Shown here in pieces: positions 8,217-52,688 of a stretch of 64,000 bases of DNA. Position numbers and translations under genes: made by a program. Within the stretch, counting starts at the first letter, position 1. Each line of letters opens with the position of its first letter. The DNA comes from Lentisphaerota bacterium (GTDB taxonomy: Bacteria; Verrucomicrobiota; Kiritimatiellia; CAIQIC01; Lenti-01). The stretch lies in assembly GCA_012514035.1 (NCBI GenBank), contig JAAZBB010000077.1, positions 33,916 through 97,915 of the forward strand. Reading direction: 5' to 3'. The notes below the pieces were generated by a model. That model made no database searches. It was given only the letters and a program-made list of their open reading frames with translations, and was not told the DNA's origin.

Positions 8217-8777
8217 ATGAATCGACGGCTGAGTCCGACCCTGTGGAGAACCTGCCGGATGTTGTCCGGCAAGACGCGCATCCGGCTGCTGCATCACATT
8301 TGCAACCACCCGGGAGATCATGTGTCCGCGATGGCCAAGACCATGGGCATCGGCGTATCCGCTGCCAGTCAGGAACTTCGCCGCATTCAATCACGTGGAA
8401 TCCTTCAAACCGAGTACCGGGGCGCGAAGCTGATCTACCGTCTCGGCGCCGACCCGCTGGTCTATTCTGCCGCTCCGATCGTCAATGCCCTGCAGGCCAG
8501 CCTCACAACCGGCGGGGATCAGGAAGGCGAACGGCTGCGTCGCATCGCCAAAGGATTGGGACATCGCAAACGGATTGCGCTGCTCCGCTCGCTGTTGAAA
8601 TCTCCCCAAACCACCTATGCCCTGCAACAGGAACTGAAGATGGCCTTTTGCACCATTCGACCTCACCTTGACGCACTGCTGGAAAGCGGCCTGATTCGCC
8701 GCACCGGCCGGACCTTCCACCCGGTATCCCCATCACATCCGTTGGCCCGGGCCCTGCTGAAACTGCTGCCGGATTAA
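8217..8777 (+). CDS. Tandem winged-helix (ArsR-like) transcriptional regulator
   Basis: Two wHTH-like units: LSGKTRIRLLHHICNHPGDHVSAMAKTMGIGVSAASQELRRIQSRGIL and GLGHRKRIALLRSLLKSPQTTYALQQELKMAFCTIRPHLDALLESGLI. Confidence 0.75.
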   Translation: MNRRLSPTLWRTCRMLSGKTRIRLLHHICNHPGDHVSAMAKTMGIGVSAASQELRRIQSRGILQTEYRGAKLIYRLGADPLVYSAAPIVNALQASLTTGGDQEGERLRRIAKGLGHRKRIALLRSLLKSPQTTYALQQELKMAFCTIRPHLDALLESGLIRRTGRTFHPVSPSHPLARALLKLLPD

Positions 8778-13474: not shown

Positions 13475-13954
13475 CTAGGGACTGATTTGCAGACGGTCGT
13501 CGTGCTTGTCCCCGTCCATCAGCACCCCGTCCTGTTTGTAGGTCTTGAGCATGAAATGCGTTCCCGTGGACAGTACGCCGTCCAGCGTTGCCAGCCGCTC
13601 GCTGACGAACGAGGCCACCTCCCGGAGGGTGTTGCCCTCCACGAACAGCAGCAGGTCGTACTTGCCCGACATCAGGTGCATGTTCACCACTTCCGGAAAG
13701 CCGCTGATACGCCGGGCCACGCGGTCGAATCCACCCTCGCGCTCCGGCTGCACCTTGACCTCAATAACTGCGGTTACGTGATCATCCGGCAGATGATCCT
13801 CGTTGATCAGCGCTCGGTAGCCGCGGATGGTGCCTTCCTTTTCATAGTCCTCGATGCGCGCGGCGACCTCGGCCGGGGTCGACTGGATCATCTTCGCGAT
13901 GTCCTCTACGCTCGTGCGGGCGTTCTTTCTGATGATTTCCAACAGCTCATCCAT
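13475..13954 (-). CDS. Lrp/AsnC family transcriptional regulator
   Basis: N-terminal HTH NARTSVEDIAKMIQSTPAEVAARIEDYEKEGTIRGYRALIN plus AsnC ligand-binding domain. Confidence 0.9.
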   Translation of the reverse strand: MDELLEIIRKNARTSVEDIAKMIQSTPAEVAARIEDYEKEGTIRGYRALINEDHLPDDHVTAVIEVKVQPEREGGFDRVARRISGFPEVVNMHLMSGKYDLLLFVEGNTLREVASFVSERLATLDGVLSTGTHFMLKTYKQDGVLMDGDKHDDRLQISP

Positions 13955-48978: not shown

Positions 48979-50546
48979 ACGCCGGAAATCCAGCTCCCTC
49001 CGACGCCTCCGCGCCGCGCTGGGGCCGCATGCTCTTCAACCTGTTCTTCGCCAGCTTCGGCTATGTGGCGATCCGGATGCTGATCGCCCCCGTCCGCATC
49101 AAGCTGCTGACCTCCCTGCTGACCAAGGAAGACTACGGCCTGCTCACGCTGATCATGCTGACCGTGTCGTTCCTCACGCTGATCTTTTCGCTGGGCAGCC
49201 TGGAATACATGCTGAGGAAGCTGCCCGGCCGGCCCGCCGCCGACCAGTACCGGACGCTGCGGACGGTCATGTCCTGGTTCGGGCGGCTGGCCGCCGTGGT
49301 CGCCCTGGCCGGCGCGGGGCTGCTGCTGGTCTGGCAGCCCGGCAAGGTCGGGCTGGTTCCCCACCAGGTCGCCGCCTGCGCCCTGATCCTCTTCCTGACC
49401 GTGCACCTGACCCAGATCGTCTATTTCCTGATGGGCCGCTCCCAGTACGCCCAGTCGCGCCTGATGATGCTGCTGTACGCCGACGCCTGGTTCCTGCCGC
49501 TGCTCGGCTTCATGTGGTGGATGCAGATTGACATCAGTTTCATGCTCTGGCTGTGGACCGTCTGGCTGGCCGGCAGCCTCGCCGTCGCCCTGATCTGGGT
49601 CAAGCCCCGCAACCTGCTCGCCCAGGCGCCTTCCCGTCCGCTGCTGCGCGACATCCTGCGCTTCGGCATTCCCCTGATGCCCATGATCATGGGCGAATGG
49701 ATCTTCCAGATGCAGGACCGCTACATTCTGCTGGCCTTCACCAACCTCGAAACCGTGGCTGACTACACGCTGTGCTTCAACCTGGCCTGGGTAGGCACCG
49801 CCACCGGCACCGCCCTGCTCGATCTGCTGATCACCGAATTCTACAAGGCCCGCAACCGCGTGCCCGCCCGCCATCTGGACGACCTGACCGCCCATGCCCC
49901 CCTGCGCAAGGCCTTCACGATGATGCTGCGCTACGGCCTGCTCCTCGGCCTGCCGATCGTGCTGGCCCTGTGGATCGCCCGCGATCCGATCGTCCGCCTG
50001 CTCAGCTCCCCCCAGTTCGCGCAGGCGATCCCCCTGATGCGCTGGGTGGCGCCGCTGCCCGGCCTCTACCTGCTGGTCATCATCGCGGGCCGCACGCTCG
50101 TCGCCATGGACCGCGGAACCATCGTCGGCATCGGCACCCTGTGCGCCGCGGGCGTCAATCTGATCCTGAGCCTGCTGCTGACGCCGTGGCTCGCCGCGCG
50201 CGGCGTGGCCCTGTCCGGCTGCCTGGCCTACGGCGGCCTCGCCCTCTATCTCGGCTTCCGCGCCCGCCTGTGGTGCTGGGTGGACTGGACCGAGCTGCAC
50301 CCCGGACGGCTCCTGGCGTTCGTGCTGCTGTGTACCGGTGCGCTGCACGGTGCGGTGGCCGGCCTGCCCGGACATCCGCTCGCCGCCCTGCTGCTCGCCG
50401 GCGCGGCCTGCCTCGCCGCGATGCCCGGCCTAGGCCTCGCCCGGTTGGACGACATCCGCCATCTCCTCCAGACCATGCATGCCCCCGTCTCCGAACCCGG
50501 CGACGGCCCCGGATCCGGCGCGCCACCGCCTTTCCCGGACGCCTAG
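48975..50546 (+). CDS. Polysaccharide flippase/oligosaccharide transporter (MOP superfamily, Wzx-like)
   Basis: About 12-14 TM segments; LTSLLTKEDYGLLTLIMLTVSFLTLIFSLGSLEYMLRKLPG typical of Wzx N-terminus. Confidence 0.82.
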   Translation: MNAGNPAPSDASAPRWGRMLFNLFFASFGYVAIRMLIAPVRIKLLTSLLTKEDYGLLTLIMLTVSFLTLIFSLGSLEYMLRKLPGRPAADQYRTLRTVMSWFGRLAAVVALAGAGLLLVWQPGKVGLVPHQVAACALILFLTVHLTQIVYFLMGRSQYAQSRLMMLLYADAWFLPLLGFMWWMQIDISFMLWLWTVWLAGSLAVALIWVKPRNLLAQAPSRPLLRDILRFGIPLMPMIMGEWIFQMQDRYILLAFTNLETVADYTLCFNLAWVGTATGTALLDLLITEFYKARNRVPARHLDDLTAHAPLRKAFTMMLRYGLLLGLPIVLALWIARDPIVRLLSSPQFAQAIPLMRWVAPLPGLYLLVIIAGRTLVAMDRGTIVGIGTLCAAGVNLILSLLLTPWLAARGVALSGCLAYGGLALYLGFRARLWCWVDWTELHPGRLLAFVLLCTGALHGAVAGLPGHPLAALLLAGAACLAAMPGLGLARLDDIRHLLQTMHAPVSEPGDGPGSGAPPPFPDA

Positions 50547-51292
50547 CGCCGCCGCCAGACCCGTTCCCCGCCGACGCGCCGCACATAGCGCCGGACATGG
50601 GCGTCCAGGTTCCCGGCCCCGGCAAACAGCATGGCCGTCTGCGACACGTAGGCCGCCGTCGCCGCCAGCCGGTCTTCCACATCCTCCGGCGACAGCGCAA
50701 TCCGGCGCGCCCGCCAGCGCCACGGCGGCCAGGCCTCCCGGCGCACCGCCCGCCACTTCCCCGCATAGGGATAATCCTCGTAGTAGAGCAGCGCGTCACC
50801 GTGAACCGCCTCGGCCGCGAGCCGGACCAGGCGGTGATCCACATGCCCGCCCGCCCCCAGCGGCGCCACCACCTCCTCCGCCGCCGGCAGGCGGCGGATC
50901 GCCTCCGTCCATTCGGCCCGAGCCGCATCCTCCGGGTGCGGCCGGCCATAGACGGCGCTCAGATCCGGATACAGCGGCTCGCCGGTCGCCGGATGCCGCC
51001 GATACATTGCGTCCGGAAGAGATTCGTGAAGGCTGTCCGCCCCCAGCCGGTTGCAGGCCCGGCGATCCTCTTCCCGACGCGCCGCGCAGGAATTGTCCAG
51101 CTTCCATTCCGCATGCAGCGCCCGGGCCAGCGGCGGCAGCGGCAACACCGGATCGCCCGCCGCCAGCGTCGCCACCAGCACTCGCTCCCCGCGCCGCACC
51201 CGCGCCGCCAGCTGCCCCCCGCACGACAGCACCGCATCGTCCAGATGCGGCGACAGATAAATGGCCTGATACGGTTTGGACACGGTACTCAT
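50543..51292 (-). CDS. PIG-L family deacetylase
   Basis: YLSPHLDDAVLSCGGQLAARVRRGERVLVATLAAGD; HVDHRLVRLAAEAV. Confidence 0.9.
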   Translation of the reverse strand: MSTVSKPYQAIYLSPHLDDAVLSCGGQLAARVRRGERVLVATLAAGDPVLPLPPLARALHAEWKLDNSCAARREEDRRACNRLGADSLHESLPDAMYRRHPATGEPLYPDLSAVYGRPHPEDAARAEWTEAIRRLPAAEEVVAPLGAGGHVDHRLVRLAAEAVHGDALLYYEDYPYAGKWRAVRREAWPPWRWRARRIALSPEDVEDRLAATAAYVSQTAMLFAGAGNLDAHVRRYVRRVGGERVWRRR

Positions 51293-51418
51293 CGGATTTC
51301 CGGATTTTCCACGCCATGGAAAATCCCGGCCCCCATTTTCCACGCCATGGAAAAAATAGCGATCGGTTTTCCACGCCATGGAAAACTTTTTCCACACCGT
51401 GGAAAATCCGGAAATCCG
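51293..51418. repeat. Array of four palindromes TTTTCCA-N5-TGGAAAA bounded by a 20-bp inverted repeat
   Basis: Copies 51305-51323, 51336-51354, 51367-51385, 51388-51406; CGGATTTCCGGATTTTCCAC (51293-51312) inverted to GTGGAAAATCCGGAAATCCG (51399-51418). Confidence 0.9.
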
Positions 51419-51485: not shown

Positions 51486-52688
51486 ATGCCGCCGCCCTTC
51501 TCCATGTCCTGGCTGTCCGGCGCCGCCGGACCGGCCCTGCGCCGCGCCGTCCGGCGGCTGCGGGGCCTCAACGAACGCTGCGTGGAATTGCCGCCGGCCG
51601 CCAGCGCCTCCCCGCGCGGGCGCGTCCTGCTGTCCTACATCGTGGATGCCGTTCTCGTCCGTACCGAACGCGACCTGCCCCACAGCCATCCCCATTTCTG
51701 GGAGACCTGGGCCATGGCGCAGGCCTTCCGCGAAGAAGGCTATGCGGTGGACGTGATCCACTGGACGCGGCGCGGCCCGCTCCCGCGCACCGATTACGAC
51801 ATCTATGTGGACGTCCGCCGCAATTTCGACCGCTATGCCGCCCAACTGCCATCCTCCTGCCTGAAGATCGCGCACATGGACACCGCCCATCATCTCGTGC
51901 ACAACGGCAACCAGCAGCGGCGGCTCGACGACCTGCGGCAGCGGCGCGGCATCGCCCTCGCCCCCTTCAAACAGATCGAAGCCAACCGCGCCGCGGAAAA
52001 CGCCGACCTGATCACCGTCCTCGGGAACGAGTTCACCATCGAGTCATTCGCCTTCGCCGGCAAACCGATCCGCCGCATCCGACTGTCCAACGCTTTCGAG
52101 TATCCGTTTCCGGACGGGCGCGACCTGGCCGCCGCCCGCCGCCGGTTCCTGTGGCTGGGCAGCGAGGGCTTTGTCCACAAGGGCCTCGATCTCGTCCTCG
52201 AAGCCTTCGCCGGTCTGCCGGACCTGCACCTGACGGTCTGCGGCCCCATCGAACGGGAACCCGCCTTCCGCAAAGCGTTTGCGGACCTGTTGTATAGAAC
52301 CCCAAACATTCTCACCGCGGGCTGGGTGGATGTCGCCGGCCCGCGCTTCCGCGAACTGGCCCTCGAATGCCTCGCCATGGTCTATCCCTCCTGCTCAGAA
52401 GGCGGGGGCGGCTGCGTCCTCACCGCCATGCATGCCGGCCTGATTCCCGTGGTCACCCGGGAAGCCAGCGTGGACATCGCCCCGGACCGCGGGGTGGCCT
52501 TGCCGGACGCCTCGGTGGAATCCATCCGGACCGCGGTCCTGAACCTGTCCGCCGCGCCGCCCGCCGACCTGGAGGCCATGGCCCGCGCCGCGTGGACCTG
52601 GGCGCGGGAATTCCACACCCGCGAACGCTTTCGCCGGGAATACCGCGCTTTCGTCCGGGAACTGGATTCGTGCCGCAAGAAAGGCTGA
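51486..52688 (+). CDS. Glycosyltransferase family 4 protein
   Basis: FLWLGSEGFVHKGLDLVLEAFAGLPDLHLTVCGPIE, MVYPSCSEGGGGCVLTAMHAGLIPVVT. Confidence 0.85.
   Translation: MPPPFSMSWLSGAAGPALRRAVRRLRGLNERCVELPPAASASPRGRVLLSYIVDAVLVRTERDLPHSHPHFWETWAMAQAFREEGYAVDVIHWTRRGPLPRTDYDIYVDVRRNFDRYAAQLPSSCLKIAHMDTAHHLVHNGNQQRRLDDLRQRRGIALAPFKQIEANRAAENADLITVLGNEFTIESFAFAGKPIRRIRLSNAFEYPFPDGRDLAAARRRFLWLGSEGFVHKGLDLVLEAFAGLPDLHLTVCGPIEREPAFRKAFADLLYRTPNILTAGWVDVAGPRFRELALECLAMVYPSCSEGGGGCVLTAMHAGLIPVVTREASVDIAPDRGVALPDASVESIRTAVLNLSAAPPADLEAMARAAWTWAREFHTRERFRREYRAFVRELDSCRKKG

Follow-up and report, generated by a model that had tools for sequence, protein, structure and literature searches.

Phased palindrome arrays in the Kiritimatiellia: candidate binding platforms for a dimeric DNA-binding protein

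The intergenic region between two divergent glycan genes of a Lentisphaerota bacterium holds four closely spaced palindromes, which raises the question of whether the array is a switch for its neighbours or one piece of a larger system. The window, the 64,000-nucleotide stretch of DNA that was analysed, contains exactly four matches to TTTTCCA-N5-TGGAAAA, all of them in this array. The first three palindromes (51305-51323, 51336-51354 and 51367-51385; no strand assigned to these or to the fourth) are identical and read TTTTCCACGCCATGGAAAA, that is TTTTCCAC-GCC-ATGGAAAA, and the fourth (51388-51406) is the variant TTTTCCACACCGTGGAAAA, or TTTTCCAC-ACC-GTGGAAAA. Start-to-start distances are 31, 31 and 21 bp, corresponding to three, three and two helical turns, and the array is bounded by a 20-bp perfect inverted repeat whose left arm (51293-51312, plus strand) and right arm (51399-51418, minus strand) were checked for sequence identity. 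On either side, and outside the system considered here, lie a PIG-L deacetylase gene (50543-51292, minus strand; Pfam PF02585, E 4.4e-15) and a GT4-type glycosyltransferase gene (51486-52688, plus strand; PF13692, E 1.9e-9). The initial annotation had described the three copies and one variant, their spacing, the terminal inverted repeat and the two gene starts (ATG at 51290-51292 on the minus strand for PIG-L, 51486 on the plus strand for GT4), and all of these particulars were borne out, the Pfam matches agreeing with both gene assignments. It had read the array either as a cooperative operator with all sites on one side of the DNA or as a member of a lineage-specific palindromic repeat family.

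The genome-wide scan that the annotation had proposed recovered 151 exact TTTTCCA-N5-TGGAAAA sites in the host assembly (2.78 Mb, 86 contigs), against an expectation from base composition of ~0.001 and no match to a reversed-pattern control. The sites are mostly in tandem arrays of three to five with spacings of 21/22 and 30/31 bp. Within 1.1 Mb of the host genome 45 clusters were counted and 116 of the 119 adjacent spacings were 21, 22, 30 or 31 bp, the other three being 40, 42 and 50. Only six clusters are inside called genes, though 88% of the sequence is coding. A common array plan in this genome is A-22-A-30-B-31-B-22-A, where B is TTTTCCACACAATGGAAAA, and the spacers between palindromes, which are 2-13 bp long, have a loose consensus in common. 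One seven-site array (L360, 10046-10230, on contig C78 of G000) consists of the standard unit doubled in tandem (30-31-22-30-31-22). Separately, the low-complexity strings ggttcagggttcaggg, gaatgaagaatgaag and ccaatatccaatatcc are found repeatedly between genes in several species, in many cases close to arrays (L128 at ~14700, L132 at ~8510 and 18280, L139 at ~9780, and L240, L241, L261 and L263).

The annotation had also suggested examining spacing modulo 10.5 bp. Across all pair distances of 35-300 bp at the loci of other genomes (n=354), the best period was 10.42 bp (R=0.86, phase offset -0.16 bp), and that of the host genome was 10.34 bp. Distances above 34 bp are outside what the search pattern selected for, but this long-range phasing is not independent of nearest-neighbour spacing because sums of 22 and 31 stay in phase. 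A phase of ~10.4 bp is the signature of sites that would lie on one face of duplex DNA, and the proposal of same-face, cooperative protein binding draws good support from the phase, the spacings and the conservation of the palindrome arms described below.

The array in the window is one copy of a repeat pattern present hundreds of times across the class Kiritimatiellia. When an array-bearing genome was defined as one with at least ten sites, counting any form, 57 of the 116 class genomes qualified. The distribution of the long pattern, TTTTCCA-N5-TGGAAAA, is patchy, with 0 to 718 sites per genome among the 116, and a shorter form, TTCCAA-N3-TTGGAA, reaches 3,044 sites per genome and is near zero across whole families. 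With 151 sites in the host and hundreds across the class, the annotation's alternative of a lineage-specific palindromic repeat family is thus well supported. Even a single genus can hold an array-rich genome (G084) alongside two that are almost empty (G093 and G111), and the array system is dispensable, since such sister genomes lack arrays. Short stretches of G093 (108 kb) and G023 (78 kb) were also screened de novo for arrays built from any other palindrome, with no convincing result. In genus g40, single sites proved to be chance matches inside rpsS. Most named records that carry the tandem pattern are metagenome assemblies, with the label Kiritimatiellae, Lentisphaerae or Verrucomicrobia, and the arrays are undescribed in the open-licence literature searched, subscription journals being outside the search.

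To follow the arrays between species, orthologous gaps were located in six congeners with query segments taken from genes next to 14 host arrays. About 24 of the 40 places compared contain an array with at least two sites. In these orthologous arrays the arms were 98.5% identical (686 positions), and identity was 49.7% in the spacers and 49.8% in the palindrome centres. Arrays also appear and vanish between species; one orthologous gap is filled by an array in G000 and G002 and is short and clean in G001, G004, G005 and G006, and new arrays apparently arise within larger spacer insertions. Four genomes of the genus (G000, G001, G004 and G006) and three more distant ones have an array upstream of pheS, with the local core in each case. 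At some loci, of which this is one, the array has persisted in distant members of the class and probably acts on the gene there. Four families have palindromes in the same codon region of a sugar nucleotidyltransferase gene, read in frame as part of the protein and again each with the local core; in an alignment inspected by eye, net insertion is small or absent in three of these proteins. In G000 (L136, 2842-2943, contig C20) the array in this reading frame has four palindromes and encodes ~38 residues. Annotators are thereby warned that an open reading frame may include a translated array.

A bacterial protein that binds DNA at hundreds of sites is usually thought unable to alter its specificity, because each of those sites would need to change as well. 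The half-sites of the arrays differ by lineage, being TTCCAA, TTTTCCAC/T or TTTTACGT, the last of which is the half-site of G006, a member of the host's own genus. The pattern TTTTACG-N5-CGTAAAA occurs 152 times in G006, 34 times in G004 and 0-1 times in every other genome, and TTTTCCA-type sites number 14 in G006 and 177 in G004. G004, from a sister species, contains both half-site types plus hybrids in which left and right halves are freely mixed on the 22/31 lattice, and the half-sites are therefore separate units, as a dimer would predict. At one orthologous gap G000 has five CC sites, G004 has AC-CC-AA-AC and G006 has AA-AA-AA; the sites thus appear to have been rewritten in place. An origin of the hybrids by strand exchange in the 3-bp centre is disfavoured because, by inspection, hybrid centres look like those of AA sites, unlike those of CC sites. 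The change of letters from species to species suggests that a candidate DNA-binding protein and its many sites evolve together, and closely related species seem to show the start, the middle and the end of a specificity change in which half-sites were converted singly and the lattice was left unchanged.

It could be argued, given that the window array lies between two divergent glycan genes and only 12 bp from the PIG-L start codon, that it serves a dedicated regulator of the PIG-L and GT4 genes or of the glycan cluster. We regard such a local operator as highly improbable. More than 40 similar arrays adjoin unrelated genes in the host genome, and none of these sites occurs in the 3.7 kb examined at the PIG-L homologues of G018 and G022. 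A glycan promoter operator is unlikely because arrays are as frequent in convergent gaps as in divergent ones (6 versus 3 in the host, 14 versus 13 at loci elsewhere) and the flanking genes are of all kinds, including the housekeeping genes pheS, alaS, ddl and gpmI. The arrays thus show neither the promoter location nor the depletion from convergent gaps of a classical promoter operator, and the enrichment in divergent regions for which the annotation had proposed a check did not appear. Of its operator reading, cooperative phased binding stands and a role at divergent glycan promoters does not. No more credible is an RNA-level element, in which tandem short hairpins in transcripts would affect termination or mRNA stability. 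Each palindrome could fold as a 7-8 bp hairpin, and many arrays lie a short way past a stop codon (for co-directional gene pairs, a median of 37 bp); helical phasing at ~10.4 bp, however, belongs to duplex DNA, stem pairing is lost in hybrid sites although these stay on the lattice, and no Rfam family reached its threshold. A possible, though to us doubtful, explanation is a selfish or neutral dispersed repeat resembling BIMEs or NIMEs, whereby an enzyme copies arrays into intergenic gaps, the lattice comes along with each copied unit, and new variants sweep through a genome by copying or gene conversion. The genome-specific master plan and spacer consensus, the presence or absence of arrays at orthologous gaps, the lack of promoter preference and the tandem doubling of one array (L360) are all consistent with copying. 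Against it are the perfect arms but randomised spacers of orthologous arrays, the in-place conversion of half-sites with hybrids, and the retention of positions such as pheS across distant genomes. The host genome has 17 Y1_Tnp matches, but RAYT counts do not track arrays across the class and the five host RAYT loci examined have no adjoining array, so RAYT/Y1_Tnp proteins were rejected as mobilizers. REP/BIME elements are likewise short intergenic palindromes in more than 100 copies and regular clusters (PMC2817692); the arrays described here differ in being symmetric, with a strict 10.4-bp lattice, hybrid half-sites and no transposase association, and no recurring GTAG or CGTC tetranucleotide tag was found beside the palindromes in array sequences. 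The Neisseria dRS3 element (ATTCCC-N8-GGGAAT), a 20-bp inverted repeat with ~700 copies in intergenic arrays (PMC3898611), is similar in copy number and setting, but it serves phage as an integration target and is interspersed with RS repeats of 30-160 bp, whereas the palindromes here are phased and alternate with spacers of 2-13 bp.

If the arrays are bound by a protein, the host's only Lrp/AsnC-type protein (13475-13954, minus strand; PF01037) is a candidate. Lrp-type operators are reported to be imperfect palindromes bound cooperatively by dimers on one DNA face, with sites two or three turns apart centre to centre and the DNA wrapping around oligomers (PMC2995911), and the arrays share the palindromic sites and the two- or three-turn spacing. 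An Lrp-type protein is encoded by all 57 array-bearing genomes, and the 13 genomes that lack one have no arrays, although these 13 represent only about four clades. It should be emphasized, however, that the comparison of orthologues leaves the protein unsupported as the trans factor, and we give this identification very little weight: array-less genomes have orthologues too, and the half-site switch in G006 and G004 is not accompanied by a matching change in the predicted recognition helix. The arrays differ further from Lrp/AsnC operators in their hundreds to thousands of near-perfect sites per genome, lack of promoter preference and lineage-specific half-sites. The host protein has one orthologue in every genome of the family and an unusually acidic helix-turn-helix. 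A double winged-helix paralogue family was rejected on its distribution, being absent from the array genomes G010, G011 and G014 and present in the array-less G028 and G096. Five of its members were found in 40% of the host genome, which has about ten family members; the one in the window (8259-8777, plus strand) is a tandem winged-helix protein with an N-terminal PTLWRTCR motif. Several copies in this family carry in-frame stops, which suggests rapid turnover. A TrpR-like protein is missing from the array-bearing families f2-f4. Among the 255 proteins next to arrays, a Pfam scan made no regulator or recombinase stand out. The regulon of ArgR is small, and DnaA-box clusters consist of conserved 9-mers of the TTWTNCACA type; the arrays do not match such clusters, their half-sites differing between lineages. 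ARG boxes, 18-bp palindromes 3 bp apart bound on one helix face (PMC6640053), resemble the arrays in that close, single-face arrangement of palindromes but differ from them in sequence and copy number and with regard to the three-turn steps seen here.

With modest confidence, we rank a dimeric DNA-binding protein that binds cooperatively and has a global role above a copied repeat that has no function for the host. From the palindromes, their strict phase, their distribution across genome and class, the high conservation of the arms relative to the spacers and the coordinated half-site change between species, with hybrids in an intermediate one, all of them features of sequence, we infer protein binding, its dimeric and cooperative nature and a joint change of specificity. 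The same features support a protein that would be duplex-specific. The window array would be one of several dozen binding platforms in the host genome for this sequence-specific protein, each palindrome being bound by a dimer with one subunit per 8-bp half-site (TTTTCCAC/T in the host), and neighbouring dimers, two or three turns apart on one DNA face, would probably bind cooperatively. The specificity of the protein would have changed together with its sites. Its task is probably a global one, such as chromosome architecture or broad modulation of transcription, and not that of a local glycan-gene switch. Counted against the favoured reading are the array plan and partial spacer consensus within one genome, as copied repeats show, the sister genomes without arrays, the lack of promoter preference and the failure of all four candidates tested as the trans factor (RAYT, Lrp/AsnC, the double winged-helix family and the TrpR-like protein) to fit. 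Copying and protein binding are not exclusive, as arrays may spread by copying and have their shape kept by the protein.

More tentatively, and as a possibility about which we remain doubtful, the arrays may represent a class-wide chromosomal system that has not been described before, in which a protein acts on phased palindrome arrays with dozens to thousands of sites per genome, and in which specificity was switched within a single genus as more than 150 sites changed via hybrid half-sites. Such a system would be an additional chromosome-wide element for a class that is poorly cultured. If true, this would be a naturally occurring example of co-evolution, across a genome, between a bacterial DNA-binding protein and its sites and, should the protein be found, would offer a testable case of specificity change at the scale of a genome.
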